A stretch of DNA of 64,000 bases from Antedon mediterranea (lineage: Eukaryota > Echinodermata > Crinoidea > Comatulida > Antedonidae): contig NC_092679.1 in assembly GCF_964355755.1 (NCBI RefSeq), positions 5,828,001-5,892,000 on the forward strand, read 5' to 3'. The stretch's first letter is position 1, and each line of letters begins with the position of its first letter. Under the pieces are notes generated by a model. The model did no database searches. It had not been told where the DNA came from and saw only the letters and a program-made list of their open reading frames with translations. A program made the position numbers and the translations under genes. Positions 17,986 to 55,304 of this stretch are shown in pieces.

Positions 17986-20879
17986 ATGGGTACATCTAGA
18001 TCTTGTATACGAAACAAAGCCCAAGATATCATAATTGCACCGGACCCGCATAATATGGCAACACTCAACATGTCACAAATTGATAGCAAAATAGACAGTG
18101 GCATTTCACAAAATGACACCATAAATCTGCAGAAAGAAATTGTAAGCAGAAAAGGTCCAGACGTTGAAATAAAGAATTCAGATGATAAAACACAAACTAA
18201 TGTAGTTACCGAACCTGTACATGTTCCACAACGGCAGAAATATGTCAACAACAGGACCTCCAAGTTGTGTGAGCTCACCCTACCAGTTCATAAAAATGAA
18301 GTGTTACCTGAAGACAAAAAAGTACTGAACGAGCAAAAATCGAAACTTGAAACAGCGCTAAGTTCTCTTAAAATAGTTGATAATTTAGTCAATGACGAAG
18401 TTTTAGAAAGTTTAAATACCTGCAGAAATGTTTATATGGAGCCAACTATTCATTTGTACCGTCATATGCTTGGAAAACAGTTATGTGAACAAGGATTTCC
18501 AGAACTTTTTTGCAGCTTTTTGGCTAAACTTCAGAAGATAGACCTCTTTGACCCAAAGAACAAACTTGCAGCAGATATATATCAGAAAACGAAAGCTGTT
18601 GCTTGGAATTTCACAAATGTTTCAAGAGATTTCTGTATTGAACTGGGCAAAGCTGGTGCGATTTCATTATTGTTGGACAATTTAACACGGAAGGAATTCC
18701 TTCCATCAGAGATTACTGAACAATATGAGAAGCATATGAAAGGATGTTTAGGAATATTGAGTAACATGGTGCGACTCTCACCGAACAATAGATTGATAGC
18801 ACGAGAGAGTAATGCAGTGAAGCTTCTTCTTGACTATTCAAAAGTGGAATTTATTATGCTACAGGCAAAATGCTTCATCATCTTGTCGTTTCTTATAACT
18901 GAAGCAGAGATAACCCTTCTGGAGAACACTGGTAGCGTCATTAGATTTATTATAAATCTTCTGTCTAACTCTCTTACGTCAGAAAAGGGTCTTGCACGGG
19001 GATTCAGTACGTCTGAAATTCTATTAGCTTTAAACAATCTAGCACTACACGACAAAAACAAACTGAAAATTGTGGAATATGGAGGCCTAGCTCAGATAGC
19101 AATAGCCCTAAAATTACAGCAGCAGACTAATAACAAATCGGCAATACAAACACTGGCGGCGGAATTGACGTGGAAATTATCTTTTATGGAAGAAAATCGA
19201 GAGAACATTAAAACAGAGAAGGGTCTCATTGAAGGTAAGTTGGAGTTGGTTGTTTCTCAGTTGTATGATGATATTCCAATTCATTTCACCTTCCATCATT
19301 CTCTGGGGGAGGCGTTGTAATTATTGGTAACGTTTTCTATATAAATTATTGTTTAGCAATTACTCTTCTGAAGTCTTCGGCGCATGGTAAACTTAAAACA
19401 GCATGTTCCGGAGCCTTATGGGAAACATTCGAAGGTATATTTGAAGAAGCAGACGATTCATCTGATGAGCAGCAACAGACGACACATTTGAAGAAAGTGC
19501 CCCACGTGATGATTAGCTACCAATGGGATGTCCAGCCAAGAATTATCCAATTGAAGCAGAAACTTCAAAATGCTGGTTATAATGTTTGGATGGATATCGA
19601 CCAAATGGGTGAGATGGAATAGCAGGATCCCTTTTGACAGCTAAAATAAAATAATTAACTACATTTTGCTATATTTTGACAAACTATTGATATTGTCCCC
19701 ATTAAATTCATGAACACGCTATTGAATAATAGCAACGAAAACATACGTGCGCATGCGTATAATCGCAGTGCTCTTCTCGAAATATTTTTTTTACTGCAAT
19801 ATTTAACATTTTTTAGGCCTATGTAAACCCACCATGTTTTCGAAACTAGGTGCTAACATTTGAACGTATTATTTTTGTTTACAGAAGGTGATTTGTTAGG
19901 GGCAATGGCGTCTGCTGTTGAGAATGCAGTGGTTATGATAGCATGCATATCCCAAAAGTACAAGGACAGTACAAGTTGTCGAACAGGTTCGTGCTGCATT
20001 ATAAAGAAAGATATGTATTTATTAGTATGCATATTTCAAAAGCGTTAAATTTAGTTTGAATACTGGTAAGCAGAATAAAAAATTGATCTATCTTTTATTT
20101 AAATATATTCTTCACCAATATTTCTCATTTCAGAAGCAACATATGCTTATAAACAAAATAAACCAATTCTTCCGCTGATTGTGCAACACAATTATACGGC
20201 AGACGGATGGTTAGGAGCATTCATAGGTACTTTAAAATATTACCCTCTTTACAAAGATTCAATGGTTGCAACAGAATTCCAGAATATAAAAAGTGAGATT
20301 GGAGAACGGGGAAAAGTTAATTCGCCATGTAAAGGTAAATGTATTTTCAATACTGTTTTACACTAAGCAAGTACATTGACCAATTACAAGCAACTGCTGT
20401 TGGGATGATTTGTCACTTGTGATTGGTCAAAACTTTTTGCTATTCGTCCAACAATAGTAATTATATATGTTACATTGACTTCTGAAATGCGTTTACGCAC
20501 AACTATCTACTTCAGTCCATGGAATAGACTGAGTAAAATAAAAGTACTAATGTCCGTTTTGTTTTCTACAGATGTTTGTGGAGTTTGTACAACAGATTCT
20601 TCAACAATTCAACTACATTCTACACACAATGGTCCAGCTGGTCCAAGTGACGTTTCAAAATGGACATCAAAGCACGTCACTGATTGGTTGAAACGAAATA
20701 AAATGCCTGAAATATGTAATTCAATGAAAAATGTAAATGGAAAAATCCTAATACAGATGTATAAGATGTCAAATAAAGCTCCGGATTTTTTCTACAGCAG
20801 ACTAGAAAGAGATTTTAAAATGAACAATTTGATGCAAATATTGAAATTTTCGAACCTCATGGATGATTTATTTGAATAA
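17986..20879 (+). CDS. ARM-TIR-SAM protein, paralogue 1 (predicted membrane-tethered TIR NADase-like)
   Basis: Five exons (17986-19234, 19357-19608, 19885-19986, 20134-20334, 20572-20879) give 703 aa, all joined in phase 1. The start MGTSRSC has Gly2 and Ser6, the pattern for N-myristoylation. A polar linker (about 1-125) precedes an armadillo-like helical region (about 130-440: LGKAGAISLLLDNL, LGILSNMVRL, ILLALNNLA, SGALWETFEG). The TIR domain (about 466-580) starts VMISYQWDVQPRI and has GYNVWMDIDQM. Glu535, split by intron 3, lies in CRTEATYAYKQNKPILPL, the position of the catalytic glutamate in SARM1-type TIR domains. A SAM-like domain (about 630-700: VTDWLKRNKMPEI) ends the protein. The order differs from SARM1. 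NAD cleavage is inferred from the family, not shown. The frame stays open past the first donor to 19320; I end exon 1 at the GTAAGT. Confidence 0.85.
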
Positions 20880-21328
20880 ATTATGTAAGATTTTAACCAA
20901 ATAACTGAGCGTCCACATCCACATTTTGTAGGTCTCCATGCCCAAGTGATTATATAAACCACTAGTGACATTGCAACAGACCAACTTAACTATTTTCAGC
21001 AAGGCAATTAATTTCCTTGGTTATGGCTACTTTTTAATCTATCTAAAAATAAAATATTCGGATTAGTTCACATTTTTTCAGACAATGTATTCCTTTCTCT
21101 AAACATACTCATTACATTTTTTATTTTTCTATAATGACATATTCATTCATCAGTCGATAAATGAAACATTGACACATTTGAAACTCAGATTGGTTCAGAA
21201 TTCTCCAAGATGAGGTTTATTGAAGTTTCTCCATCGTAGGTAGTTTATTGCGAGTTATTCATACCATGTCCAAGATAGACTGCATGTGCATATTTTGGAT
21301 ATTTTGTTCAAAAGTGTTACGTCACAAA
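20880..21328. other. Spacer between ARM-TIR-SAM 1 and the truncated receptor gene
   Basis: A 450-bp AT-rich spacer with the 3' UTR of the TIR gene and the 5' UTR of the receptor gene. Nothing else is recognised. Confidence 0.5.
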
Positions 21329-24300
21329 ATGGAAATGTTAAAGTGTACATTGTTCTTCTATTTTGCAATATATTATGCTTTTGGTAAGTTAGAAAAATAA
21401 TATTAATACCGACATCAACTAAGTAATATTTGGTTATGACAGATTCTAAAATAGAAATCAGAAATAACAAGGCCATATACATGGCTGCAGTCGCGTACTT
21501 AAGTTAGTGTTGATCGACCAACCGACCGACCGAACAACCGACCGATTGAACAACCGACCGACATAGTGAGCTGTAGAGTCGCGTTGTACGCGTCTAAAAA
21601 TGTCGTTCAACATTACGACAGTATGCTTTCCATGCGAGTTTAACTGAAAAGACGAATGTGTCGTCTTTCACACCTTCGCCGGTCCGGCTCCGGCGAATAA
21701 AATTACATCTCAATGTTTCGTTTTCATTACTATTTCCACGCAAACCTGAACTGGAGGTGGAGCCGGAACCGAAGAATGTGTGATAGACGCTTAAAGATGT
21801 ATTGTCCCTCAAAAACATGAAATATAAAGATTAATAAAATTAGACTTTGAATAGATTTTTTGTGTTTTTAATAAAGTTAATCACTTCCGTAGAAAAACCC
21901 GGAAAAATTATTGTTTTCACTTATAAAATGACAAAATAAATGGTTAAATTCAACCAAAAACCTTTTGGCTGGCAGCCAATTTGACTATTTTTTGCTTTAA
22001 ATTACCGTTTTTTAGGTAAATACATTTTTTTTCAATCCAATTTTTGATCAAAGTGGATAACAATTAGGTAACATTAAAATATCATATTCAAAAAAAAAAA
22101 TTAAAATTATTTTTTTCAGGAGGACAATACATCTTTAATAAGTGGGAAACATTATTATTAGATTCTGGTAAGATCTTGTAATCTCAATTATGCTAAACAG
22201 TGCAAATGCTCCTGTGTTTAAAATGACTAAAGATGATTATTTTTTTTTAATTATTTTATCATTCAACAGCCACAACTATTTCGACCAGAATTGATAAATA
22301 AAAACACAATATAACAAATATATAAATGCTCTTACGATAATCAGAAACACCAAATAAGAAGGTTACAAACAGAAGAAAACAAGACCTATAAGCCCGGTAA
22401 TAGTAACATAGTAACATCTACCCATAACGGAGCAAAATAAATGTCGAAACTGCATTAAAATATAAATCGGATAAATTGTATTTTGGATCTTGTATCATTA
22501 TCTGAACTATCTTTCAAAGAGGAAAGGAGACGATAACATTTTTCCAGATATTAAATTGTAAAATATTAGATCTAAATATTATATATATATATTATATATA
22601 TTTGCTTAATATAACATATCAGTTATTTTCTATATTCCAAATTTTCTTATTCAGATTTATATTTCTCATGTAATTTATTTTATTTATTGGCTTTTGTTTT
22701 TCTTAAACTTTTCTGTTTTTGTTGTATTTTGTGTATTGTATCTGTTCTGACGGTCCCAAATGATCAGCAATTGCTGGATGGATTACCCTCATTAAATATT
22801 ATGGTTCAAATAAAAAAATAAAAATGTGTTATTATTTCTTTGTTTAATAGGCACTCAGTGCAATCTAAACCAGTTTCAGTGTGGACTTGGGAATTGTATA
22901 TCTGAAGGATACGTATGTAATGATCTATTTGATTGTGGTGATCTTAGTGATGAACGTGAATGCTGTAAGTATCTGTAGGCCTACTGCTTGGTTCCCACTG
23001 AAACACAACGCAAGTGAGCGTAACGTAAATAATTTGACCAATCACAACTAGTGGATTGTTGGAACTATGGCTTGTGATTGGTCAAATCACTTCTACTGCG
23101 CTTACGTCCTTGCGTTGTGTCCTATTGGGAACCAAACATAACTTATAGTTACACTAGATTTTTGTTTTCCATCGTTTACGTCAAATAAAAGCGAGCTTCC
23201 TTTATTAAGCGTGGTTCCCAATATAGACAGGTTCCATTTCTCAAAAAACGGCCTAGAAAACGAATCAAGAAGCATTTTTGGGTAGAAGCTGGGATCCACT
23301 TGATTTAGGATATTTCGACCTCGCTGATTTACGAATATGGCGGATCCCAAGCGAAATTCGGCCATCTAAGCCCTTAATTTGCATAATTAAAAATGGCGGC
23401 CATTTTTTATAATTACCCTATATATCGAGAACCACTAGTCACAGATAATTAATTTTGGTGTCAAAATGTTTTAAATATATGTTTTTTATATTCACTTTAA
23501 TGACACATTTTCTCAAAAATGGATGCAAGTCTTATTTCTGACATTTTGACCTTTGACCTTGATTTATCGTATCTCAGTAACCAATAATCGGAGAGACACG
23601 AAATAGGGCTCAAATTGTTCATAAACTATACATTTATATTTATTATAATGAAATGTTTTTACAAAAAATGGCCGATTCTACAACTATTGACCTTTGAACT
23701 ATTAGTCAAATATAATAATATAATAATAATATAACTTTGAAAATTGTGGTCTTATGAATTTTTGTTTCTTTTTAAATTGTTTAAAACATGTGTGTTTCTA
23801 TCCAGTCTAATTGCATATGTTGTACAAGAATGGCCGATAGTATGGTTATTGACCTTTTAACTACAGCATAGGCCTACTGTATACTAAATATAATATAATT
23901 GCATAACTATGAAATTATTTATACACAATAATAATTAGTAAAATTATAAAATTCACTGCCATCAAATATGATGTGTTATGATTTATATAGATTTTTAAAA
24001 AAAATTTGAATACGCATTAAGTTACATTTGTTGAAATTTGAAATTACCTGCCATCAATATGATGGAGTATGATTATAGATTTTCTAAAATGTGAACATGT
24101 CGGCTACATTTGGAAATTACCTGCCATCAATATGATGGATTATGATTATAGATTTAAAAAAGAATTTGAACACGTAAGCTACATTTGAAAATTACCTGCC
24201 ATCAATATGATGGATTATGATTATAGATTTTAAAAAGAATTTGAACACGTCAGCTACATTTGAAAATAATAGCGACGCAACGTAACGCAACCTACGTAAC

Positions 24301-27300
24301 CCTAAAATACCCTTCCAATACTTGTGTTTTCCTCCGCCTTCTGCGTGAAATCAACCTGCAATGTTTGCAGCACTGTTGCGTCATCGGTGATTACGAAATA
24401 CAGCACTTTGCCTCAATACATTGTTTCGTTCTAGTGGGAACCAAGCCTAATAATATACTGTATGACTCAAGCGTATTAACGACTTTACAGTTGTTCATCT
24501 TCTACAAAATTTCTCGTAATATTTTTCTGAAACTCTGGAGTTGCTTGATTCAGTTTACTGAAATCCAATTTGACAGAACCCAGTTTTCCGAAAATCCAGC
24601 TTTCTTACTATTACTGTAGCCACAGGCCCCTAGCTTGGTTCCCACTAGGTACGGTATTAAACTAATACAGCATCTGCATTAAACATTCAAAGTATTATGT
24701 TACAATGTTTGGAAATATATTTACGATTTAAAATTTTGATAATTAAACTCAGCACACTTTGATACAGCAGTGCATTCCCATTCCAAAACCGGCAACAATG
24801 GACTCTAAAAGGGTTTTACAATGGACTTGATTTTGGCCGTGTTTCCGCAGCCAAACATGAACCGATGATTAACCGATAAAGTTCCGGTTCAAACGGCGTT
24901 TAACGGATTCCCACTCGAGAAAAATCAACCTAATTATCTCATTAAAGTCAGACAATTATAGAATAATGTTCAACCTTTGACCTGAAGGAAAAATTGTTGC
25001 GTTGTGATTTTGCACTTGGTTGTTCGGTGATGTTTGCACATGCGCACATTTTTTTTTTAAATACCGATAATTTTGTTATGGCTGCGGAAACTGGATTTGG
25101 CACACCGACACCAACCCGTTCGAACCGGGACACAAGAATAATATGATGTAGATATATCATATTTTCACAGCTCACCACGTGTGTAATGAGCAACAATTCA
25201 AATGTGCAGGTCATGACAAATGTGTTCACAAACAATCAATATGTGATCATCAATTTCTTCATTGCTCTGATGGATCAGACGAGTCAAATTGCAGTATGTA
25301 ATTTATTTTATTTATTTTCACAAGGAAATTATTTAAGTAATTCTAGTTGGTTGAAGACCCCGCTTACTCACTTCTCTTTCTGCTGATTATGGAATAGCAA
25401 CTAGCAATATTTAAATCCTCATAATGTATTTTCCTTTTTAAAAATGTGTTTACAAACGATTACTTTAAGCTAACTTCTTATGTAGATGAAAGGTGTAATG
25501 AATTCCAATTTCAATGTTTAAATGGGCTCTGTGTGAAAAAAAACTTTGAATGTGATAGCTTCAATGACTGCGTTGACGGATCAGATGAAAAGAATTGTTG
25601 TAAGTTGATATGCTATCCACCCGATTATACAGCTACTATTTACATTGATACCCACTAAAAGTGTTTAGGTCGCTAGCTAAGTTCGTTAGATTTCTTAATT
25701 TACTTTTAACAATTTCTAATTCATTAATACTATATGCATCAGCAAAGATGTATGCTTTTAATGATTTTTAAAAGAATTAATTCTATAGTAGTAGTTGAGC
25801 ATCAACCGATAAAGCTCGCTTCCAAACGAGTAATGAAATACAACTTATCATTCCATCGGAAATTACTCGTATCAATAGGAGAATTATACAGATTATAGGA
25901 GCTTTTCTATTGATATCATTTAACATACTGTATATACGTACTACCGTCGTATCAATAGGAGAATCATACAGATTATAGGAGCTTTTCTATTGATATCATT
26001 TAACATACTGTATATACGTACTACCGTCGTATCAATAGGAGAATCATACAGATTATAGAAGCTTTTCTATTGATATCCTTTAACATACTGTATATACGTA
26101 CTACCGTCGTATCAATAGGAGAATCATACAGATTATACGAGCTTTTCTATTGATATCATTTAATACTGTATATACATACTACCGTCGTATCAATAGGAGA
26201 ATCATACAGATTATAGAAGCTTTTCTATTGTATCCTTTAACATACTGTATATACGTACTACCGTCGTATCAATAGGAGAATCATACAGATTATAGAAGCT
26301 TTTCTACGAACTACCGCCGTTGTAGCGTAAACAGCTTACGATAGAAGCTTTTACAGCTCTAGTCTTGTTTGTGAGCCTAAAAATGTGATTTGATAATGAA
26401 AATAGGATTTGTTCTAATTTATGTTTAGATTTCAATGAGTGCGATATATTTCAATTTCGTCTTATATCACGAGTACGATTTCGTCTTGTATCATAAGCAC
26501 GATGTATTTCATTTTCTTCTTATTATCATAATAATAATTGAATGAGATATTTCAATTTTGTCTTATGTGTAGATTACCATGAGTGCGATATATTTAAATT
26601 TAAATGTTTAAACGGACAATGCTTTGAAAATGCTGATAAAGTTACATGCGATGGCAACTCTGACTGTGCTGATAAATCCGATGAAATTAATTGCTGTAAG
26701 TTACCTAACTGTACTATAATTTTCGTTATTAACGCATATTAATATGTAAAGGAACATAAAAGAGCCACGAAGTAATGGATTGTTCCACGAGGCACGTCTA
26801 TTCATCCAACACGAACAAAGCATGAACGACACAATTCATAATGCGTTTGGTAGAAACTGTTGTAGTTGATGAAAAAGTTGTAAAAACCGGCTTTACTTTC
26901 GACACTTAGATCAACTCATAAATTATTTATAATTTAAGGTGGAATGAACAGTGGACATGGCTGCAATGATTTACAACTTCGATGTTTAAATGGCCAATGT
27001 GTTGCTGAAACATCACACGATAACTACACTGATCAATCTGATAAGACCCATTGTTGTGAGTAGTTACACTATGGTTAAGTTAATCATTTATCATCACGCA
27101 GTGTAATATTGTGTAACTATTTTTTTAATTCATAATTTAAGGTAGACAAAAATGGTATGAGTGCAATGAATTCCAATATCAATGTTCGGATGGGTTATGT
27201 ATTTCTGAAACCTTTGTATGTGATTACTACGATGACTGCACCGACGGATCAGATGAGATGAATTGTTGTAAGTTGATATCTTATCATCTCCTGCTTGCAT

Positions 27301-30300
27301 TAAGGAGCCATAATCATCATACACAATGTGCAACTTAAAGGCGGATCTGGTCCTTAACCATTTAAACATCGACATCAAGACAGCCACCAACATACAGAAG
27401 AGAGAACTAATTGTCTTGATGATGTACCGTAAATGTGTATAAAGCGACCTACATAACTTAAAATTTCTTTATTACAGCCGACTAAAATGATATAATGACC
27501 GCTTCACCTCAAATCTATTCATTGCAGATTTCAAAGGCGCAGACAATTCACCAAAGCAAATAACATCATCCACGAGTTTGGAACCAACAAATTCCGAAAG
27601 CACAGGCCAAGGAAATACAACTGAACCAACTAGAAGAAACGTTGCAGGTTACACATATGGTATAACCACAGATCTAGAAGATACTACCGATGGTACACTA
27701 GACGATACTACCGATGGTACAACCACAAATCTAAAAGATACCATCAATAGTACAACCACAAATCTAGAAGACAATACCGATGGTACAACCACAAATCTAA
27801 AAGATACCATTAATTGTACAACCCCAAATCTAGAAGACACTACCGATGGTACAACCACAAATCTAAAAGACACCATCAATGGTACAACCCCAAATCTAAA
27901 AGACACTACCGATGGTACAACCACAAATTTAAAAGATACCATCAATGGTACAACCCAAAATCTAAAAGACACTACCGATGGTACAACCACAAATCCAGAA
28001 GATACTACCGATGGTACAATTACCGATAACATCGACAGAATAGGCCCAGTAGTAACGACTGAATCAGCTATAACAAATACAGGTAACGTTGATTATAACA
28101 ACAACCACCAAAAAAGTATAATATAATATCTATGGTGAAATTCATTAGTTTTGACGTAATATTTTGTACAACAATACAGTAGACCTTGTATCAAGGATAC
28201 ATTTTCCGGGAAACATGGCTGTGGTTGGTTGTAATAATATTAAAAATAAAAACATAATATTATACCTCGTTCGTTTCATTGGAAATTTGCCCCTTAAATA
28301 GGATCAGGTTTCCAACAAAAGGAGTCCTAATTAATAATACAATCCATTTCAAGAGAATCATCATTGTAAGCACTTTAATCGCTTCTTGTCCGCAAATAAT
28401 ACGAATGTAATCACGATATGTCTAAAATTCAGATCATTCTTATTATAAATCTTGGATAATGTTTATTAATAATTGAATTCTGCTTTTTAGTTGAATATGA
28501 AGCTAAAACACCGGATTTCAAGACTATTGTCGTTGCCTCTAAATCGACCAGTGTCACGTTTTCAGTCACTGCTGCAGACGACACACAAGGTGGGTAGGCA
28601 CTCCGTTGTTCGCATTTTTTGTCTCGTTCTTTTTCACTCCGTCCATTATTGCTCACTCCAAACTTTAAGGTCGCTTTAAAGATATGGGCCAAGTATACCA
28701 ACGTTTCATAAAGGTTGTATTATTTACTTTTGTAGAGGGACCATACAGACTTGTTGCAAAATTGATAGATGTAGAAGAAATTAAGGAATGGGAAACTGTG
28801 TAAGTTTCACCATAGAGATATTATAGTGTACTATAATAATTATCTCTATGGTTTCACAGGCGCTTATTTACGGTTTGTGAAAGGTGTATCCTCACGATAC
28901 ATGTCAAGGCCATACACCCACCAACTATGGCTGGGATATGACACTCACAACCCCTATTTGTGGCATGTTATCCCAGTAGATCCAGAGTAAAATTGTCATA
29001 TTATACAAATCAGTCTAAAATAATGTGTAAATACAGTAGGACCCCATGTTGACCTTAAAGTTTGTTGCTCCTATTGTTGAGAAAACTACCACTGTCAGAA
29101 GATCGTTACCTTGGTTTGATGACGAGGCTAATGTGTTGAAGAAGCAACTTCGTCGTGCTGAGAAGACCTTACGGAAGTCTGCCACCGACGAAAATAGGTC
29201 AGCTTACAATGATCTACGCAATTCATACAAACGTTATCTTCGTTTAGCCAAGTACGAATTCATTAATGGTGCTATCAAAGAAGCTGGCAACAACTCAAAA
29301 AAGCTTTACAAGATCGTGTTTGAGCTCATTGGTAGACGTAAAAATAACCCACTTCCACCACATGAAACTGATAAACAGTTAGCAGACGACTTCATATCTT
29401 TCTTTATGGGCAAAATAGAGAAAATACGAGAGGAATTGGAACACTTCCCTTTGTATGAACAAGAACGGCTAATGGCAAATGAATTTATTGCATTTCAGGA
29501 AGTTAGCGAAGATGATGTTAGGAAGTTGATCATATGCGCAAAACCAACAACCTGCTCCACTGACCCCCTACCGTCGACACTGGTGAAACAGCATCTGGAT
29601 ACACTTCTACCACTTATTACAAGGATGATCAACAACTCGTTGTGTAACGTCGTATTTGCTCATAGATGGAAAATATCAGTTATAAAACCGCTTATAAAAA
29701 AGAAGGGTGTTGAATATATCTTCAGGAATTATAGGCCAGTAAGCAATCTGTCCTTCGTATCCAAGCTGGTTGAACGCGCATGCTTGAACCAATTCATAGC
29801 TTATGTTGAGAACAATACCTTATTACCGGCGTACCAATCTGCCTATCGGAAAGGTTTTAGCACAGAGACGGCTTTGGTTAAGTTAACCAATGACGTACTC
29901 TGGAATATGGAGCTGCAAAGGGTGTCTGCGCTGGTATGTATAGACTTGTCAGCAGCCTCCGACACAGTGAACCACGAAGTACTCCTCGACGTTTTGCAGA
30001 ACAAATTCGGAGTGGCCAATGCGGCATTGAACTGGTTTGATACTTACCTTCGTCCTCGATTTGCCAACGTAACAATCGGCGAAACTAACTCGGAGACAGC
30101 CAATTTGTCCTTCTCTGTACCTCAGGGTAGTATATGCGGTCCAGTTCTATACACCATATATGCCAGCACTTTACAAGATCATATCAGTAAGTTTGATATT
30201 TCTGTGATGGGATATGCCGATGATCACTCAGTGTATGATTCATTTAATCCAAATTCTAGTTCTAGTATGGAAAATACAATCACCAAATTACAAGAGTGCC

Positions 30301-32144: not shown

Positions 32145-32293
32145 TTTTGTACAAGTTTATTATGGATACACTTATTGATGTCATCATTATTAGGAATCAC
32201 CATAGGAATATCTCAATATGCTTTTGCAAATTTGGATATATTGTTTTCTTTGATAAAATGAAAATCATTGTTGCTGACAATGCTTACGTGTAG

Positions 32294-32393: not shown

Positions 32394-32399
32394 ATATGA

Positions 32400-33760: not shown

Positions 33761-33764
33761 AAAC

Positions 33765-34369: not shown

Positions 34370-34389
34370 TCGCGTGCTTATTAGTCTTC

Positions 34390-35640: not shown

Positions 35641-35761
35641 ATTGGTTTAGAAGTGTTCTAATAGTTTCATTACAGTTTTTTAATAAGTAGTTTAGTATCT
35701 TTTGCAAGTTACCATTTCCATGATAGACTGCAGTTGCCATATTTGGATATTTTGTCACAAG

Positions 35762-44700: not shown

Positions 44701-47700
44701 GTACTGAATGTGAGATTCTGTTTACCAATATTACGGTACGTTTTTAACCAGTTGGTTATTATACAAATGATTAATGTTTTGTATTCGTGTATGGTACAAA
44801 TAATGACATGAGGTGAATGATGAAATGTTATATATAAGGTTATCAACGAGGCTCAGTTGGTTATATATCAACTCGACTGTCGCCTCGTTGATATATAACC
44901 TTTCATCATTCACCAAATGCCATTATTTGTACCATTACACGAATATAAAACATTCATTATTTATTTTTTTTTTTTTTTGTCTTATGTAGGATCGACCCAC
45001 TTTTATTTCTTCATCAATAAAATGTTCGTTTACAATGCATTGCACATGAGTAATGTAATGATACAATACAATTGATATAAAATAACTTTCAGTACATCTG
45101 ATATCTCACTCCTACCATTGCATTTTATATATGATTATTATTTTATATAACATCTAAATAGATTCCTGTCATTTGAATCAAATAAAATGTAGGCCTAGCC
45201 AAGGCCTACATTTTGATTCACATTGATTAAACAGTAACATTTGATTTTTAATAATTATATTAAATATTATTATTTACATGGATTTTATAAATGCACCTAT
45301 TGTTAGTGTTAATTATGTCAACAAACAACCAAACAATCCTAGGCCTAGCAAGGCTAAAACCTTAAACCCCATCATTTCTGGTAAAATAGAAATTTTGACG
45401 GCAATCTTGAAAACACTTTCACATTAATCAAATAATTTTTTGTCTAATTATTAAGGAAGGAACTACAAATAATGTAACGGGTGTCCCAGTATGCCATTTT
45501 ACCGAGGATTATGGTCCAAATCAGAAGACGACGTAAGTTTCTATTATTTGCATATTTTAATGTCAGCAAATTGATTGTGTTTTACCACCAATATTTTCGG
45601 AAATAAAATAACATCAATAAATTAATTTTATTCATTTAGGTTATGGTCAACAAAAGGGTGTTTGACTTTATATCAGAACGATTACGTCATCAGTGATGTG
45701 ACGTGTAAATGCACTCATCTGACGTCATTTGTTGTTCTCGTGAAACCAAACCATGTAAGATTAAGTTATAATCCGTTACGAATTTTGTATAAATACACAA
45801 TTAATATTGTATTTTTTTTTATATTATTTTTATTTTTATTAAAGCACATCTATTCGTTTGTTTGGTTATTTAGACAAATGAGAAAAGAATGTTATCAGTG
45901 CTTACAAACATTGGAATTGGAATTTCCAGTTTGTTTCTTTTCCTAACACTTATTATAATAAGAATGGGGTAAGTTATTATGTAAGAAATGACACTAATTT
46001 AGAATACCGCGTAAACTACGGTAGTAATAATTAGCGCAACTAGCCAATTCTCAGTATATACTGTGTGTGTAGCTTAGCCCGGTTTTATAGACAAATTCTG
46101 CGACACGGCATCATGACTTCGATGATAAAGATAGCAGACAGAGGTAACAAGTATTAAACGTACATAATACTGTACACTTAAAACTGTATCTAAATGACTT
46201 GCGCTAGTCATTTAAGATGTATTTAGTTGAAGAATAAGGTGTCTTTTCTTTGTTATAGCCTATATCTGTAGTTCAATTTTTTATATTGCCTTGTGGTAAA
46301 ACTGTATGTGTAATTGGTACTGTGTGACTATCTTCCTCTATTATGGTTGTGAATCTTGGGTGTTATTGAGGCATGAAAGAAATCAACTCATTTGCTACAT
46401 CTTGCTACAGGATACTTGGCATTAAACCAAGTGACCGTGTCTCGAACACCATTGTATATTCCATGACAAACTTTGACCAACCCCTTCTCAACTGTGTAAG
46501 GAACGCCAGCTGAGATTCCTTGGGCACATTCTCAGTCTGAAGAGGAAGAGCCTGCAAGAACATACGCTCTCCACATACCAACTTATGGCAAAAGGCCTGG
46601 ACATCCTCGAACATCTTATTCAGCTTATGTTTAACGTGTTATAGGGTACGATGAAGGCATGATACAAGCTGAACAAATAGCCTCACTTGCCCAAGATTGA
46701 AGTGCTTGGAAAAGTGTAGTAATTGCCTGCTCCACAGCCAAAGGGTAGATAGATAGATAGATAGAATTGGTAATATAGCAAAACAACATTACATTTATAC
46801 TATCTTACAGGGAATTAAGGACATCTGACAGGTATAGAGTATTACAACATCTTGTGATCGCTTTACTTTTGGCAAATTTTTTTTTTTATTTCTTGAACCT
46901 AAAGGTAAGTTCTATTTATATATGTTTTTTTTATTTGTTTTCTAAGCAGTTTAATTTCATTATAAAAGTTCGTTGTGGGAGCTCATCATTGACTCTTTTT
47001 TTATTTTAAGAAAGTATAAAATCCATGTAGAACTCAAATGCGTAAATCTTCAAATAATGTGACAGTTTTTACGATATACGATAAAAGATGTTACCCTTTA
47101 TTATAGATTAAAAAGGTTGCGTGTGCTTTCCTTGCTGGAAGTCTTCACTACAGCTTGATGGTAGCGTTCTTTTGGATGTTGATTATGTCAACAGATATAT
47201 ACATAAAGATTAAACACTCATTTATGGATCATGAAAAACGATTTGTTTACTGTCGTTACATTGGTTGGATTGCACCCGGTATTGTTGTGTTGATTACTGC
47301 GTGCGCGACAAGAGAAAACTATGCGTCTGACGAGTAAGTATTTATTTTACACATTTAACGGGGATTGGGGAGGGAATAAGAACACTATATTTCAAAATTA
47401 AGTTAATTTTTTTTCTTTTTTTGTAGATGCTGGTTAAACACGGATTCTGGCGCAATATGGGTGTTCATTTCATGTGTCTGTATTACTATCTTGGTAAATA
47501 TTTTACAACATTGCTTGCAGCCAAAACTTAGAAAATGGTTAATCATTAGCACAAAAAACACGTAGCGCTGCGCAAAATGTTGCCATGTAATAAATGAAGG
47601 AGTGACTCAAACTCAAATTACTGATTTTTTTTGTAGATCGTTCTTATTCAGATGACTGTTGTCGGTTTTGTTATTTACAAAAAATCTCAACTACCAAATC

Positions 47701-49175
47701 AAAGTAGAAATGAATCAAACACACGCAAACGACTCGGGTAAATATTACACAGAATAGGAAGGGCAAGAGGGATGGGTTAGGCCTATATAGACGTGGAAGG
47801 ATCTAGACATGGGATTGGGTCTAGACGTGTATGTGTGACGGTCTTGACAAAGGGGCGAGTACAGATGAGGGATTTGGTCTAGACGTGAGATTAGGTCTAG
47901 ACGTGGGAATGGATCTAGACGTGGGATCGGATCTAGACGTGTGCGTGTGACAGTCTGGACAAATGGGCGAGTAAAGATAATGTATTTGGTATAGACGTGA
48001 GTTTGGGTCTAGACGAAGGATTGGATCTAGACGTGGCCGGGATTGGGTCTAGACATGTACGTGTGACGCCCTGGAAAAAGGGGCGAGTATACAGAGAAGG
48101 ATTGGGTTTAGACGAGGGATTGGATTTAGACGTGGGATTGGATCTAGACGTGGGATTTGGTATAGACGTGTACGTGTGACGGTATGGACAAAGGGGTGAG
48201 TACAGATGAAGTAGCCTATTTGGTCTAGACGTTCCTAGGCCCGTTATCCAGTACTAATCCAAAATGTCTCTATAAAAATATATTTTAAATACAGTACTGT
48301 AATATTATTTTTAAAATTGTCAGAACTATGTTACTCGGTTTACTATTGCTTACTCCAGTCGTTGGACTTACCTGGATTTTTGGGATTATTGTTATCTTTG
48401 ATGATTCAGAAATGATGCAATACATTTATGTTACAATGAATAGCATGCAGGGATTCTTCATATGGCTGTCACAGTGCTTCTTTAGCAATGAGGTGACCAA
48501 TTTTATTTGATTAATTTATCATTTAGAATGTAAACAAGAAAGTCAGATTGGCGGGAAAATGAATGTGTGTTATTTCGAACGTTTTCATTTCATTAAAAGT
48601 AGTTGCAACAATAAACCATGAATCTTACTATGAATAATTCTTGTAAAAATAATAAAATATCACGATATCAAAAAAAATCCGTCAATATTACATTACACTA
48701 ATTTAAAGGCCTATGTATATAATTTAATATACTTTTTTTATATATATTTTTTATTTAGGCCTATATGATTTAAACTTAGCTTTGGAATTTTGGTATATTA
48801 TATTTTAAGATGGTATAATCATTGCTTGTGAAACTGGGTGAGTGAGGAACACAGGCTTTAAGTCACACTGATTAGGTTCGCTTTTGTGTCCCATGCCAGC
48901 TCACTCAGTTGGTTCTATTGTTTTTTTTTTGTATGTCGTGTTCTTCATGTATTTTATATTTGGCAATAAAAGAATAAGAATAAAAAGGGGGACTACTTTC
49001 ACCCACGGCTAACCTTTCCAAACGTTGTTACTTTACACTGTAGGCAAGACGTGCAGTTAGAAAGAGTTTCAACAACAGAATAATAAATTCACATTTTTTA
49101 ACCAAGTTCTCCAACACCAGTACAAGTAAAAACTCGACGACCACTATCGAAATACAAGATATTGACGGGCGATAA
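35762..49175 (+). CDS. LDLa-mucin-GPS adhesion G-protein-coupled receptor (complete)
   Basis: Twenty-one exons sum to exactly 894 codons (893 aa), all phases consistent: 35762-35816, 35900-35974, 36377-36490, 39172-39303, 39810-39926, 40620-40742, 41850-41972, 42073-42198, 42914-43378, 43756-43857, 44062-44125, 44627-44735, 45456-45532, 45640-45754, 45874-45968, 46811-46904, 47107-47333, 47427-47493, 47637-47737, 48324-48492, 49044-49175. Order: signal peptide; six LDL-receptor class A modules, each on a symmetric phase 1-1 exon; Thr/Ser-rich stalk (about 290-443); short GAIN-like segment; GPS ([29 protein letters not shown]); seven TM helices of the secretin/adhesion type ([12 protein letters not shown] in TM3, [15 protein letters not shown] in TM6, [19 protein letters not shown] in TM7); tail [13 protein letters not shown]. 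It should be a surface receptor cleaved at HL/T. Exon 2 is the least certain. No orthologue is named. Confidence 0.85.
36530..36930. repeat. Short-period repeat of (ccgaaatccagttt)
   Basis: About 25 imperfect copies of a 13-16-bp word built on aaatccagtttgccg and aaatccagttttccg. A few copies of the same word occur at 24550-24600 in the paralogue's intron. Confidence 0.85.
37010..37757 (-). mobile_element. 5'-truncated LINE, reverse-transcriptase C-terminus
   Basis: The minus strand encodes about 150 codons ending at 37257: [32 protein letters not shown] and [16 protein letters not shown], typical of the C-terminal end of CR1/Jockey-like elements. The 3' tail is a run of atgaaatgaaat-type words near 37015-37040. 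The 5' truncation point abuts the 16-bp satellite. Confidence 0.8.
37735..38713. repeat. 16-bp satellite, about 61 copies
   Basis: Perfectly regular head-to-tail copies of tactcatacatattcR where almost the only variation is A or G at the last position. Because 16 is not a multiple of three and no frame has a stop, all three plus-strand frames are open for nearly 1 kb. I regard these frames as non-coding. It lies in an intron of the intact receptor gene. Confidence 0.97.
38935..39150 (-). mobile_element. tRNA-derived SINE
   Basis: On the minus strand the head at about 39150-39100 reads ggatagccgagtggttagga (A box) and gggttcaattctcgac (B box). It is followed by cagtccactcagctgtaaat and agtacctggtt, a body shared by SINEs in many marine animals. 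It ends a few bases before an LDLa exon of the intact receptor gene. Confidence 0.7.
40104..40255. mobile_element. MITE with tctgtctac ends, copy 2
   Basis: The ends gctctgtctacaatatcaaa and gtttgatagtgcagacaga are inverted repeats. The core has aaatatggtagtgat twice and tccatatatgggcacat. The family is shared with 2330-2440 and 58385-58495. Confidence 0.7.
40380..40619 (+). repeat. Array of duplicated splice acceptor plus exon start
   Basis: Five copies of atatagattaccacgagtg followed by cgatatatttcatttcatc precede the real LDLa exon at 40620, which begins with the same sequence. Each copy repeats the 3' splice site and the first 20 or so coding bases of the exon, then breaks off. Confidence 0.85.
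40857..41000. mobile_element. Rearranged copy of the TTAA MITE
   Basis: It shares ttaaaaatgtattgtccct and, in inverted order relative to 21791-22138, ttatccactttga and gtatttacctgaaaaaactg. The right end is missing. Confidence 0.6.
41017..41510 (-). mobile_element. RTE-like LINE fragment
   Basis: A minus-strand frame encodes the C-terminal part of a reverse transcriptase: [19 protein letters not shown], a KFHELKEVL segment and [17 protein letters not shown]. This 'FxYLGxxI ... LYGxxxW' spacing is typical of RTE-type elements. Both ends are truncated. Confidence 0.75.
41648..41772. repeat. Hairpin-forming inverted repeat
   Basis: Arms gttgagtttctcgacgtttt, atcaatatgctttgatc and their complements enclose a loop around cctcctcaggagtgaggac. 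It lies in an intron of the intact receptor gene, 80 bp before an LDLa exon. Confidence 0.75.
44148..44271. repeat. 41-bp tandem repeat, three copies
   Basis: Three identical copies of caccgggactgcacatagg plus catctaggcctacatata, shortly after an exon of the intact receptor gene. Confidence 0.9.
44766..44965. mobile_element. Foldback MITE next to an inverted 5'-flank fragment
   Basis: Arms of about 85 bp (ttttgtattcgtgtatggta, caaataatgacatgagg, atatataaggtta and complements) surround a short loop at gctcagttgg. Directly after it, 44985-45100 is the reverse complement of 33587-33712, the sequence just upstream of the decayed TIR copy. Confidence 0.8.
46325..46740 (+). mobile_element. Degenerate LINE C-terminal fragment
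   Basis: Plus-strand frames with several stops and shifts read [34 protein letters not shown] and, at the end, a Trp-Lys-Ser and CSTAKG segment. This matches the C-terminal end of RTE/CR1-like reverse transcriptases that precede a short tail, here (gata)n at 46748. Confidence 0.65.
47775..48240. repeat. Minisatellite of tctagacgtgggattgg
   Basis: About 20 imperfect copies of a 17-18-bp word, with two longer blocks (gtacgtgtgacggtctgg, acaaaggggcgagtacaga) repeated three to four times. It lies in the intron before the TM6-TM7 exon of the intact receptor. Confidence 0.85.
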
Positions 49176-51185
49176 ATATGATAATTGTATAATCAACATT
49201 GATAAGGTTTGACAAATAATGGATTTACCAGTAGTACACAAGGGCAACAAATGAAGTGAAGACATCATGTTCAAGAGGACAATAAACCCCGTCAGCCATG
49301 TTGTTTAATCATGCTAAAATTATTTAAGAACATATTGAACTTTTAGTATTTGAAATTTTGGTTCAGTAATTTGAAGATAAGGTTTATACACACATTATAC
49401 ACTTGTCTATATAGTTTAGTCAAGTTATGAACACCACATAAATTTGAGGTGCAGTTCATACTGAATAAGAATGGAAAATTAGAGTGCCTGGGACAACCTT
49501 CAGTAATCAAATACTGTATCTGCATCACTTTATAACATGTATGTCTTGCTATTTTCTCACATAGATGCTGTAATCAAATACCTAACTTTTTTATAATCTG
49601 TATGTTTTGCTAGCTTCCCACATAGATAATTAATCAAACCTGCATCACTCAATATTTGATCCGTGTTTTGCTATAGGAGAATTGATTGTTAATTGGTGTA
49701 TTAGTCTTTAATTATATTGTAATTTCTTGTAATGTATTATTGAAATGAAAGGAGATATGGGGCTTCAAAATAGCAAATGGCGGCCATTTTGAATTTATGC
49801 TAATTAGCCCACTTCCCAATGTCCGGTTTTGGTAAACTTGGATATGATGTTCATTTGGATCATATCAACCAGACAAAAAAAACTCTGTTGCAATTTGTTC
49901 TAGGTTACCCTATTTTTTACTTATCGATGGACTAAAAGAACTTTCAGCAAAAACAATTTGAAACTTATTATCGTAGTATAGTTATTATAATGATAATGAT
50001 ATATAAATTAATGTTTCGTACCCGCAGTTTGTAAATGTGTTTCGCATTAGCCTAATAAATCGCACTGTACAGCAACGCAAGAATCCGAGTCTGTCTTTAC
50101 GTTTCTTTTTAAATCATAACTTGTAGCTTGATTGGTACTGTACTACCGTTTTTTAGAATATAAATCTTATCTGAAATACTAATCGAAAATAAAAATCAGA
50201 AATGCAACTCTTTACAAATTATTTTATTCGTCGCTGATACGAAATCAGGAAATGACATAGGCCTATTGATCGATTTTGGATGAGTCATTCCATTGGAACC
50301 ACAACACGTATTGGCCATATTCATGCTCGATCAAAAGGCAGTAGGCCTAACGAGGTAAGTTCTAGTACAATAATATTGTAGTGATAATTACGGGGAACAA
50401 TACTTATGATAGGCTAGCTACATTAGCCAATAAATTAAAATATTATCATGGTCTCCTGATGGAGGTAGCTTTAGGTCTATAGTATACCACATTAATTTAT
50501 TTTTATTTAATCTATTTATTAGTCTATAGACAAGTTCTTTTGTCCATTCAAGTAATTCACAAAAATGTTAAATTCCCGTTTTTCATGTACTGCATATTAT
50601 TATAAGCACGAAGAAATTAACTAATAATTCATCCATATCATGATAAGCAAAGCATTGAAGCTCACTCATGCATATAAAGTACGTAGCGATAAGCATAGTA
50701 ACAGTAAACAACCAGTCTTACCTGGTGCTTAGCCGGCAGGCTGAATTGGTTTACGCCGATTAAACTCTCTTTCCTCCCGTGAAAGCTGTCAATTGCAATG
50801 ACAAACAATTTGATAATAGGCCTAGGATAGGTAAGCAATGTTATTATAAGAAATATTCTTAGTCTTCTCAGTACGTCTACGTCAACTGCAATCATTTACG
50901 TTGTTTTCTCGTTCTCTGTCTGGTATGTACTGAAACGCAATCAAGCAAGTGACACGTTGTTTTTATCAGGTGCCAAATTCCTTGCCAGACACCTTTTGTT
51001 AACATGTTGTGGGGTTTTTTTTGGGTGAAACAGCGTAGTTTTATTATTATGCACCTATTCAGGCCTTATAAAAAATGATATTAATGCTTTAAATAATCTT
51101 TATTTTGACATCAGAATAGACACTGATTTTGAAATGAAAAATACAAACTAAAAATTTAATTTACAGAAATTATTTCAATTATCAG
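49176..51185. other. Receptor 3' UTR, spacer and possible 5' UTR exon of TIR paralogue 2
   Basis: No coding exon is recognised. The 3' UTR is homologous to 32400-33000, with aataaa near 50054. At 50281-50355 a block ending acgaggtaagt is conserved with 33181-33251; its donor-like end and conservation suggest a non-coding first exon of the ARM-TIR-SAM genes. A segment gcaaatggcggccattttga lies at 49773. Confidence 0.55.
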
Positions 51186-51505
51186 TCGTGCATTCCTCCA
51201 CAACAAATGATTACCTGTTTTCTTTCATATTGATCAAGTCACTGTGATATGGGTTGCAGCTCAAGTCGTGCATTCCTCCACAACAAATGATTACCTGTTT
51301 TCTTTCATATTGATCAAGTCACTGTGATATGGGTTGCAGCTCAAGTCGTGCATTCCTCCACAACAAATGATTACCTGTTTTCTTTCATATTGATCAAGTC
51401 ACTGTGATATGGGTTGCAGCTCAAGTCGTGCATTCCTCCACAACAAATGATTACCTGTTTTCTTTCATATTGATCAAGTCACTGTGATATGGGTTGCGGC
51501 TCAAG
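51186..51505 (+). promoter_or_regulatory. 80-bp tandem repeat that copies the start codon (three upstream ORFs)
   Basis: Four copies of an exactly 80-bp unit starting tcgtgcattcctccacaaca. Each unit ends with a copy of the N-terminal coding start, atgggttgc(a/g)gctcaag. Copies 1-3 put ATGs at 51249, 51329 and 51409, each opening a 13-codon frame MGCSSSRAFLHNK followed by TGA. Copy 4 supplies the real start at 51489 (MGCGSS). If transcribed as one leader, three identical upstream ORFs precede the gene; if the repeats lie upstream of the transcription start they are silent. Confidence 0.85.
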
Positions 51506-54500
51506 TCTACAGAAGAATAGTGTAGTATTTACAGAAAACGAAATTGTAAAAGGCAAAAGCATGGAAAAAAACAACCAAACAACTGAGAAAAATCCAAAAA
51601 CAATAGAAAAAGAAAAGCAGCAAAATGGCGATTCAAAGAATGTTTATGATACTGAGGATGCGAAAGATGAGAAAGAAAATTCTCAACAAAAAAGCGAAAA
51701 AAAAGAAGAGGAACTCAAAGATCAGGATGACAATTCAGATGAGAATGATTTGGACATGGACGTTAAGTTGTACGAGTTGACGATACGACAACAGAATGTT
51801 GACGTGAAACCTGAATCACAAGAAGCGTTAGATAATTGCAAATCAGAAATAACTCGGGCAATGGAATTTCTTCAAAATGTGGTTGATTTTAAAAATGAAC
51901 AGATTTTAATAAGCATTGAAGTGATCAAAAAAAGTTATTCAAAGTGGACTAAATACCGACCACTTCTTGGCCAGCACTTGTGTAATGTTGGATTTCCAAG
52001 TTTATTTACAAAATATTGGATTGAATTAAACAAATTGGATTTATTTGATCAGGAAAATGTAGTAGAGCTGAAAGTGTTTAAAGCGATGAATTTAGTAGCA
52101 TGGAATTATTCTGATGCTTCAGTCGCTATCTGCGAAGAGCTTGGAAAAGCTGGTGCTGTACCGCTACTACTCTCAAGCTTCACACAGAACGAACTTTTAC
52201 CCGATGTCATAACGAACCCTGTTATTATTCATGTCAAAAGTAGTCTGGGTATTTTGAATAACATGGTGCGGCTTTTTCCTGACAATATTCAGATTTTGCG
52301 TGACAACGACGCTGTCAAAAAACTTCTTGATTACTCATCAGTCAAATTTTTAATTCTAAAAGCGAATTGTTTCATTATTTTGTCTTTTTTAATCACGGAC
52401 GATGAAGTCAGTTTATTGGAGAACATGGGAACGGCTGTTGGCTTTATTATCAACCTTCTTACAACCTCGTTGACATCCGGTAAAGCACGAGGTTACAGTA
52501 CTTCAGAAATTCTTCTAGCTTTGAACAATCTTGCGGGTAATGATGAAAACAAAGTTAAGATAGTGGTGAGTAATGGACTTGCTCAGTTAGACAGAGGACT
52601 TAAAAAAAATGCAAAGTCAATACTTATTTTGTCGTCCATGCTTTGTTGGAAACTGGCTTTCATTCAAGAAAACCGAGTAAAAATGCGAAAGGAACAGAGT
52701 CTTATAGACGGTAAGAATACTTGTGTAGTGTGCAGTTCTGTACTTTACTTAAATACCAAGCCATAGCCAGGATTTTTGTGTTTCTTTTTTTAACATAAGA
52801 AGCATAAATCTTCAGAATCTACACTCCCGCTGCTAGTTTGAAAAGTGCATTTCAGGAAAAACCTTTGGCTATGGGCTTGTATATTTAAAAAGACCAAGCA
52901 TGCCAAGTATTATATTTTAATTGTTGAAAACATTTATTGAAATTAAAAACAAATTCAATTTTTTTACAGGATTGAAAAGGCTAAAGAATTCTGAAAGCCA
53001 TAAACTGAAAGCAACATGTGCTGGTGCACTATGGGAAATATTCGAGGGCCAACCTGAAGAACAATTAAGTGAGGATTCTCCTGTTCTTACTTTGTCACAG
53101 AAGCATGTGATGCTCAGCTACCAATGGGATGTCCAGCCAAGAATTATCCAATTGAAGCAGAAACTTCAAAATGCTGGTTACAATGTTTGGATGGATATTG
53201 ACCAAATGGGTAACTATCTTACAGAATAGGTTCTGTTGTGATATTACAGAATAGGTATCTTATAGAATGGGTTCCGTATCTTATAGAATGGATTCTGTAT
53301 CTTACAGAATGGTTTTGTATCTTACAGAATGGTTTTGTATCTTATTGAATAGGTTCTGTATCTTACAGAATAGGTTCTGTATCTTACAGAATGGTTCTGT
53401 ATCTTACAGAATGATTTTGTATCTTACGGAATAGGTTCTATATCTTACAGAATAGGTTCTGTATCTTACAGAATGGTTCTGTATCTTACAGAATGATTTT
53501 GTATCTTACGGAATAGGTTATGTATCTTACAGAATGGTTTTGTATCTTACAGAATGGTTTTGTATTACATGGAATTGGTTCTGTATCTTACAGAATAGGT
53601 TTCATATCTTACAGTATAGGTTCTGTATCTTAAAGAATGGTTTTGTATCTTACAAAATGGTTTTGTATTATATGGAATTGGTTCTGTATCTTACAGAATA
53701 GGTTTCATATCTTACAGTATAGGTTCCGTATCTTAAAGAATGGTTTTGTATCTTACAGAATGGTTTTGTATCTTACAGAATGGTTTTGTATCTTACAGAA
53801 TGGTTTTGTATTATATGGAATTGGTTCTGTATCTTACAGAATAGGTTTCATATCTTACAGTATAGGTTCCGTATCTTAAAGAATGGTTTTGTATCTTACA
53901 GAATGGTTTTGTATTATATGGAATTGGTTCTGTATCTTACAGAATAGGTTTCATATCTTACAGAATAGGTTCCGTATCTTACAGAATGATTTTGTATCTT
54001 ACAGAATGGTTTTGTATTATATGGAATTGGTTCTGTATCTTACAGAATGGTTTTGTATCTTACAGTATAGGTTCCGTATCTTAAAGAATGGTTTTGTATC
54101 TTACAGAATGGTTTTGTATTATATGGAATTGGTTCTGTATCTTACAGAATAGGTTCTATGTATAGTACTGTACTGTATATATTTTTCTGTGAAGGTACAC
54201 TCGGTGACTAGTTATAATAATCATTTATGCAACACTATTTCATGTTTTTATCATTATAGAAGGTGACATACTAGGTGCTATGGCTGATGCCGTTGAAAAT
54301 GCTGCAGTCATTTTAACCTGCATTTCTAAGAAGTACAAAGACAGTACAAGTTGTAGAACAGGTACTGTTGTGTCTTTAAAGTACAATTTCTTTCATATCT
54401 GCATTAAGCCATTAAACTATTTCATTTGCATTTTTTTATATTTTCACAAATGTTAACTTTTAATTAATTTACAGAAGCCACATATGCTTACAAGCAAAAC

Positions 54501-55304
54501 AAGGCAATTATCCCTTTGATTGTTGAGCAGGGCTACGTGGCCGACGGGTGGCTTGGCGCCCTAATAGGTACCCTTATCTACTTCCCCATGTTTGATGACT
54601 CAAAATTAGAAACGGAGATCAATCGAATCGTAAGCGAGATTGGTGATAGAGGTAAAATGCAGAAAGGGCAGCAAACAGAACATACAGGTAGTCTTTAAAT
54701 TATTTAACATGTGCTTATGTTGTATAGTTTTTGGTCAGGATTAGGTGATAAATATAGCGGCATCTATGCTTTATTGTCTCCCACTATTTAATTTTTTCGT
54801 GTTGGGTCCTCTAAAAATCTAAGCTTGGATTATCAAAGTATGCTTCACAAATAATCCGAATCTGCTGAATGGCTTTTCTTTTCCTCAGAAATTATTCCTG
54901 TCGCAACTTCAATAGTGAAGTGTGGTAAAGACTCAACTGATAGTCCTTTCATCTCGGCTGCAAAGGTAGCAGTGGCTGAAATGGTATCAATGACTATAAC
55001 ACCACCAACAGCTGCAAAGACATCAATGACAGCACCGACAACAATTGCTGCAAATAATACGACAAATATAGCTGGCTGGACGACTTCTGATGTCGAGAAG
55101 TGGTTGAAAAAGGTTAAACTTGAAGAATGCCGCTCTGCAATGGAGAATGTTGATGGCGACATTCTGATTCAGATGTACAAGATGTCAAAGGATGCACCAG
55201 AGTTTTTCTACTCAAGGCTGGAAAGAGATTTTGATATGACACATTTGCTGCAGGTACTGAAGTTTAAAAGTGCATTGGAGAAACTTATATGTCCAGGAAG
55301 CTGA
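51489..55304 (+). CDS. ARM-TIR-SAM protein, paralogue 2 (predicted membrane-tethered TIR NADase-like)
   Basis: Five exons (51489-52710, 52970-53209, 54260-54361, 54475-54687, 54889-55304) give 730 aa with the same five-exon, phase-1 structure as paralogue 1. The start MGCGSSLQK has Gly2, Cys3 and Ser6, a classic dual acylation signal. A charged Glu/Lys-rich linker (about 10-95) precedes the armadillo-like region (about 110-435: LGKAGAVPLLLSSF, LGILNNMVRLF, ILLALNNLAG, AGALWEIFEG). The TIR domain (about 455-570) has VMLSYQWDVQPRI, GYNVWMDIDQM and Glu522 in CRTEATYAYKQNK, split by an intron, at the SARM1 catalytic position. A Thr/Ala-rich linker (about 600-652) leads to a SAM-like domain (about 654-725: WTTSDVEKWLKKVKLEE). 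Paralogue 1 has a shorter linker. NADase activity is inference. The N-terminal start is repeated three times upstream. Confidence 0.87.
53215..54170. repeat. Intronic 20-22-bp repeat of (gtatcttacagaatggtttt)
   Basis: About 45 copies in intron 2 of ARM-TIR-SAM 2, with a higher-order unit of about 120 bp in the second half (53630-54150). Most copies contain cttacag, so the intron carries dozens of splice-acceptor-like AGs between the TIR exons. The array starts within 10 bp of the exon 2 donor. Confidence 0.9.

Follow-up and report, generated by a model that had tools for sequence, protein, structure and literature searches.

An alternating array of ARM-TIR-SAM and adhesion receptor genes in the crinoid Antedon mediterranea, probably the product of a single unequal crossing-over

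Genes for ARM-TIR-SAM proteins alternate with genes for LDLa/GPS adhesion receptors at one locus of the crinoid Antedon mediterranea. Do the two form a working pair that has been copied together, or has recombination simply left them side by side? The locus lies in a stretch of 64,000 nucleotides (the window), bases 5,828,001-5,892,000 of contig NC_092679.1 (C10, 25.0 Mb) of assembly GCF_964355755.1 (354 Mb, 18 contigs). An initial annotation of these letters described a single-strand order of TIR1, truncated receptor1, TIR pseudogene, complete receptor2 and TIR2. Both the order and the strand are confirmed, and we call the five genes T1, R1, psi, R2 and T2. In the list, 7TM is the seven-transmembrane part and GPCR a G-protein-coupled receptor.

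17986..20879, + strand: T1, ARM-TIR-SAM gene, 703 aa, starting MGTSRS; predicted spliced model with a TIR_2 match
17986-19234, 19357-19608, 19885-19986, 20134-20334, 20572-20879, + strand: the five exons of T1, predicted spliced model
about 22836..32141, + strand: R1, six LDLa-like exons, a Thr-rich exon, GAIN and GPS exons, without 7TM; limits approximate
33761..34367, + strand: psi, decayed TIR-SAM remnant, T1-like, with no ARM exon; from sequence comparison with T1 and T2
about 36362..48505, + strand: R2, adhesion GPCR with six LDLa, GAIN/GPS and 7TM, transmembrane exons open; joined exon pieces, limits approximate
51489..55304, + strand: T2, ARM-TIR-SAM gene, 730 aa, starting MGCGSS; predicted spliced model
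51489-52710, 52970-53209, 54260-54361, 54475-54687, 54889-55304, + strand: the five exons of T2, predicted spliced model

With a probability of about 0.75, one unequal crossing-over made this array, the two families are neighbours by position, T1 and T2 would be membrane-tethered SARM1-like NAD+-cleaving enzymes (NADases), and R2 would be an adhesion GPCR. The evidence for the exchange begins with the non-coding sequence around the genes.

32286..33350, + strand: flank copy A, matching copy B and including a dispersed element of ~140 bp near 32530-32680
49049..50465, + strand: flank copy B, 5' of T2, matching copy A
21262..22506, + strand: stretch between T1 and R1, of which 21262-21407 and 22426-22506 match 35710-35841 and 36235-36313 before R2

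Shared flanks had been proposed, and copies A and B do pair, in four pieces of 73-80% identity. The initial annotation took chance to be the explanation if such flanks were merely dispersed repeats and the two families were also unlinked in all relatives. The piece 32830-33260 is found at two places genome-wide, both within the window, which rules out a dispersed repeat there; that description holds just for the inner ~140 bp piece. With these locus-specific flanks, and with R1 and R2 grouping on their GAIN and GPS exons (support 83/91 in 9 rows, under the star threshold of the tool), the proposal that a receptor plus TIR unit was copied as DNA stands. The repeated co-duplication also proposed does not, as the pattern of matches is accounted for by one unequal exchange.

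That pattern centers on psi. Of exon 2 it retains about 49 bp, of the 201 bp in exon 4 about 74, and of the SAM exon a part; exon 3 is missing, and what is left carries insertions and deletions. Its upstream flank pairs with that of T2 and not with that of T1. From 33761 to 36498 the matches follow 19560-22972, which takes in the 3' part of T1, the sequence behind it and the receptor's first exon; T2 contributes just two short exon matches, 47 and 69 columns long. Between the upstream flanks of T1 and psi there was no match in the stretches compared (15500-23300, 32120-36700 and 48500-58000), nor between the downstream flanks of T2 and psi. The matches switch at psi from the T2 side to the T1 side, and this is therefore the pattern expected from one unequal crossing-over between T2 and T1. 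The ancestor would have had the order T1 - receptor - T2, and its T1 and T2 would by then have been long-separated paralogues. Mispairing of T2 with T1 and an unequal exchange would have given T1 - R1 - a gene joining a T2 side to a T1 side - R2 - T2. The junction gene would later have decayed into psi, and the 7TM exons of R1 would have been lost. The receptors last match at 32121 = 45731, and matching restarts at 32286 = 49049; because of this jump R1 appears to have lost all of its 7TM exons, and its truncation fits a deletion of them. The decayed psi and the truncated R1 bear out the suggestion of a birth-and-death cluster, if a small one.

Could a T-R unit instead have been duplicated in tandem on at least two separate occasions, leaving T-R, T-R, T? 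T1 and T2 differ by a non-synonymous divergence (dN) of 0.445 and a saturated synonymous divergence (dS, 2.3), and are therefore much older duplicates than R1 and R2 (dS 0.40 across 308 codons). At least one earlier duplication of T is thus required, possibly with a receptor that has since been lost. Yet no receptor exon was found 5' of T1 or 3' of T2 in the window, and nothing in the compared stretches corresponds to the outer flanks. We regard separate duplications as distinctly unlikely, and retain the single exchange.

A functional partnership makes a different prediction, namely that the linkage should recur at independent loci. In such a pair the adhesion GPCR would sense a ligand and signal to a membrane-tethered TIR NADase, and selection would keep and copy both. 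In its favor, receptor and TIR genes are adjacent in both units, T1 and T2 are predicted to be membrane-anchored, and R2, T1 and T2 are all open. A uniform model with 84 other receptor and four TIR loci gives 0.038 expected adjacencies within 20 kb, a value for two families that were picked after the adjacency had been noticed. We therefore searched for the same pairing in the rest of the genome. The ARM query gave six matches. Two are T1 and T2, three fall in a pair of copies near 21.76 Mb on C1, of which the second is broken and accounts for two, and one is a gene on C6 near 24.96 Mb. A diverged ARM-TIR-SAM member lies on C1 near 20.34 Mb, for which we have a partial model. The receptor 7TM query, scored for 150 of 260 candidates, gave at least 146 matches that merge to at least 85 loci including R2.

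The linkage is seen at this locus only. None of the three other ARM-TIR-SAM loci found has a receptor exon in the locus or within 10 kb on either side (tblastn of six flank pieces with seven receptor pieces), and none of at least 84 receptor loci outside the window adjoins an ARM-TIR-SAM gene. The seven receptor pieces fetched contain no ARM or TIR exon. Of the receptor matches listed, none comes nearer than 388 kb to an ARM-TIR-SAM locus outside the window, and the nearest to either C1 locus is >11 Mb off. The families are thus unlinked elsewhere in this genome, which bears out, for one genome, half of what the initial annotation had named as grounds for regarding the pairing as chance. Because copies of both families elsewhere in the genome are not neighbours, the pairing looks accidental and not a working partnership. 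The copying is explained by the single exchange, and the unit was not kept intact as a whole, since psi decayed and R1 remained open. A functional pair, one of the two explanations first offered for the array, is therefore very improbable.

Taking TIR domains of any kind there are 65 matches, with 34 loci outside the window. Among the matches listed, the TIR locus closest to a receptor is at 7.807-7.859 Mb on C3, where a TIR-only cluster lies 90 kb away from a cluster of receptors; for the second closest the distance is 156 kb. The former is a point for the functional pair and against neighbourhood by chance. But in the 50 kb read of the 60 kb of C3:7801001-7861000 we found four TIR places, no ARM and no clear interleaving with receptors, and the sole receptor-like match is a weak one to transmembrane segments 6-7 (TM6-7; 32% identity, E 0.002). 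The same region has several mutually similar open reading frames (ORFs) of about 190 aa, and the receptor cluster 90 kb away is large. Elsewhere on C3, 16 of 38 Pfam TIR matches fall within 110 kb (C3:5548621-5658729); these are possibly Toll-like receptors.

What would the TIR genes of the array encode? The models of T1 and T2, predicted from genomic sequence, share an identical five-exon layout, with GT-AG boundaries at 8/8 introns and zero internal stops. Pfam TIR_2 matches at E = 4.9e-19 in T1 and 9.2e-20 in T2. The other domains are supported by a profile of the five family members, which on comparison with PDB sequences matched the ARM repeats of Vac8 (E 5.2e-10) and C. elegans tir-1 (E 8.1e-9, the best stretch being the SAM), with SARM1 chains also found. 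ARM repeats thus precede a TIR domain, and the order ARM-TIR-SAM with a single SAM is common to T1, T2, C1a and C6. In a protein tree of all five members, a supported group (98/99) unites T1, T2 and C1a without ordering them further. C1:21763080-21769309 holds another tandem ARM-TIR-SAM pair, one intact and one broken, without a myristoylation-type start.

The TIR profile gave 11 PDB matches at E 0.01, including Cat1 (0.0013). One TIR glutamate is invariant in 5/5 members, and aligns with Cat1 and with the Glu of the SARM1 KEIVTAL stretch, which we take to be E642. In human SARM1, E642 is named as the catalytic residue (PMC10675840). Because the domains are present together with the catalytic Glu, T1 and T2 are most likely SARM1-like NADases tethered to the membrane by N-myristoylation. 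The ARM region would restrain the TIR NADase, as described for ARM and TIR of SARM1 (PMC8635717), and the C-terminal SAM would aid assembly upon release.

The predicted tether comes from the N-termini. The consensus MG-{EDRKHPFYW}-x-x-[STAGCN]-{P}, as quoted in PMC9440496, fits the start of 4/5 modelled members, T1, T2, C6 and C1b (MGTSRS, MGCGSS, MGGKCS and MGSGTS), where the C6 start is a choice, its open frame holding earlier Met residues. C1a (MATGKR) and the broken second C1 copy (MATANR) do not fit it. Beyond the MGxxxS start the N-terminal region is barely alignable among family members, and the conservation of the start alone suggests selection for membrane tethering.

The start codon of T2 lies in a minisatellite:

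51184..51507, + strand: minisatellite including the T2 start codon, 80-bp unit x 4.1, 99% matches

The three further upstream copies each contain ATGGGTTGC, and on hand translation would yield short upstream ORFs (MGCSSSRAFLHNK-stop) that might tune T2 translation through repeat number. Intron 2 of T2 is also largely minisatellite (53255-54155), with several TTACAG acceptor-like motifs in the consensus unit.

R2 has the features of an adhesion GPCR. Its joined exon pieces give six Ldl_recept_a stretches, GPS at 24.7 bits (cut-off 22.5) and a full-length 7tm_2 match (E 8e-33), from which we infer an adhesion GPCR that cleaves itself and would bind ligand through its LDLa ectodomain. R1 lacks the combination of GPS and 7tm_2. 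Its joined pieces gave five Ldl_recept_a stretches in Pfam at E 0.1, at which nothing else was reported, neither 7TM nor GPS. One further, degenerate LDLa exon makes six; the GPS exon can be aligned to that of R2, and if read unspliced its frame stops at 32141, right after the GPS.

R1 might nevertheless be alive, as a secreted LDLa-GAIN ectodomain equal to the fragment that self-cleavage of R2 at the GPS would release, and acting as a decoy. Ten exon pieces of R1, 499 codons in total, read through without a stop, and a GT donor follows every one of the six LDLa exons (GTAAGT in four cases, GTGAGT and GTATGT in one each). In simulations of neutral decay at 0.2, 0.1 and 0.05 substitutions per site these pieces acquired 8.9, 5.0 and 2.7 stops on average, and 0, 2 and 57 runs per 1000 stayed free of stops, for pieces that had been picked as open frames. 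Neutral decay would leave stops and the R1 pieces have none, which speaks for coding constraint on R1 during much of its existence; psi, a copy from the same event in the crossing-over model, decayed. But the preselection of open frames favors that outcome, cysteines have been lost from LDLa5, and dN/dS between R1 and R2 is 0.52. The 7TM deletion may also be recent, and the length of the neutral branch is uncertain given that dS differs between exons. We therefore hold a secreted R1 to be possible, and tentative. Further features lie within the receptors and beside psi:

29040..31073, + strand: open reverse-transcriptase ORF between GAIN exons of R1 (RVT_1 E 3.7e-28), which we take to be of the non-LTR (long terminal repeat) type
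34399..35644, no strand: 221-bp tandem repeat, 5.6 copies, adjoining psi; tandem repeat detection

A 16-bp tandem array (61 copies, 98% matches) occupies 37734-38714, between the first two LDLa exons of R2.

Several observations weigh against the account given so far. The 5' junction of psi falls somewhere in 33350-33761. Part of this interval has no match and another part recurs in inverted orientation at 44970-45096, so that the join may have been non-homologous or a deletion may have followed. R1-R2 dS varies by exon from 0.09 (GAIN) to 1.05 (LDLa2), so that there is no single clean clock for the duplication. Further receptors may exist beyond the 150 candidates scored. For the enzymes, the Pfam matches to SAM (T1 and T2) and ARM (T1 only) are under the Pfam cut-offs. 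The TIR profile finds SARM1 and tir-1 at just E about 0.003, and TRAF3IP2, which is not known as an NADase, equally (0.0028). A structure model of the ARM exon has low confidence (mean pLDDT, the predicted local distance difference test, of 54.4). The best 50 of its 1019 fold-search matches are mostly designed armadillo proteins, with importin alpha and an axonemal protein; the model is thus closest to armadillo repeats, and SARM1 is absent from those 50.

Recombination has probably also acted on single exons of the array.

53104..53211, + strand: segment of the T2 TIR exon, probable conversion tract, 95% identical to T1 19503-19610
47116..47356, + strand: TM3-TM4 exon of R2, probably converted, from the dS contrast

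At the end of the TIR exon, in its final 37 codons (36 of them compared), T1 and T2 differ by dS 0.28 and dN 0.011, while elsewhere dS is 1.8 to saturated. For the same codons dS to C1a is 1.2 and 0.9, and therefore constraint alone does not explain the low value between T1 and T2. For the TM3-4 exon of R2, dS is 0.21-0.28 to five receptors that also lie on C10, at a distance of ~1 Mb (C10:4.83-4.87 Mb and 6.96-6.99 Mb), whereas the values for receptors on C5 and C8 are 0.87 and 0.75. For the other seven exon pieces of R2 dS to the same five is 0.43 to 1.73 or saturated, and in a tree of TM2 and TM6-7 the five form a clade excluding R2 (100/99). The TM3-4 tree leaves R2, the five C10 receptors and the C8 receptor in one open fork, with end branches of 0.022 for R2 and 0.0045-0.025 for the five. 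Because that tree gives no resolution, conversion of R2 TM3-4 with the C10 receptors, which we consider probable, rests on the dS contrast.

These two contrasts, with the exclusion of R2 from the clade, raise the alternative that local recombination dominates, converting single exons between copies, and that the array is a passive outcome of it. Yet the TM3-4 tree leaves the second case in a fork, conversion tracts are common in multigene families, and the junction of psi is near, but not demonstrably within, the TIR exon. We think this unlikely as the leading explanation. The conversion signals are limited to single exons, one spanning about 1 Mb. A composite reading would join all of these elements into a self-contained surface module, in which R2 triggers the T1/T2 NADases, R1 is a secreted copy of the ectodomain and the whole is one block refreshed by exon conversion; we find it scarcely credible.

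The attractive pair of receptor and enzyme thus becomes a case that one unequal exchange can account for, with in-genome controls arguing against a functional link. The lasting value lies in the conversion signals and in the small ARM-TIR-SAM family, with its SARM1 catalytic Glu and common myristoylation-type start, which offers an easy way to test at the bench whether SARM1-type NADases work at invertebrate membranes. At the two ends of the window there are tandem arrays of 27-bp and 17-bp units (3-1013 and 63337-63993).

How does the family compare with known systems? An NCBIfam search with T2 returned 0 families, and a prokaryote scan with two short TIR peptide patterns found one relative, in a metagenome-assembled genome of Anaerolineae (27% identity). 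In our literature search we found no paper on a TIR-plus-receptor cluster of this kind, nor the term ARM-TIR-SAM; the order may still be reported, for example in the bivalve TIR survey from which the term ecTIR-DC is said to come. The ecTIR-DC proteins are described as conserved invertebrate TIR proteins, hypothesised to function as adaptors (PMC6321704). Mollusc ARM-TIR proteins have an ARM-type region and a TIR, as in T1 and T2. Eleven such genes are given for Aplysia (PMC9334734), and the class is named in oyster (PMC4346834). Compared by description, they differ in that these accounts, as far as consulted, mention neither a C-terminal SAM nor N-myristoylation. In amphioxus a predicted, transcribed gene combines TIR and SAM, with no ARM mentioned in the part of the description compared (PMC2575513).

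R2 resembles the adhesion GPCRs (family B2) in having GPS and 7tm_2 over the Pfam cut-offs. It differs in the six LDLa repeats of its ectodomain, and R1 in the absence of the 7TM part. LDLa repeats are also reported on GPCRs of the rhodopsin type in Ciona (PMC2396169).

Like T1 and T2, TRAM (TICAM2) is a TIR protein with an N-myristoylation-type start. It is described as a TIR adaptor recruited to the membrane through a putative N-myristoylation site (PMC9440496). A further comparison is with SARM1 and C. elegans TIR-1, which share ARM, SAM and TIR domains with T1 and T2, the TIR aligning at the catalytic Glu. A search for canonical SARM1 with a 95-aa query from two TIR-1 pieces, a weak test, gave one match, on C6 (E 8.6e-4). 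This sole match (C6:22748500-22757500) is an ORF with TIR then SAM, followed by another TIR ORF. TRAM has neither ARM nor SAM, while SARM1 has the order ARM-SAM-SAM-TIR and carries a mitochondrial signal. T1 and T2 differ from SARM1 in having ARM-TIR-SAM with one C-terminal SAM, an only distantly similar TIR, and predicted N-myristoylation in place of the mitochondrial signal. By domain order, T1 and T2 are therefore not SARM1 proper.

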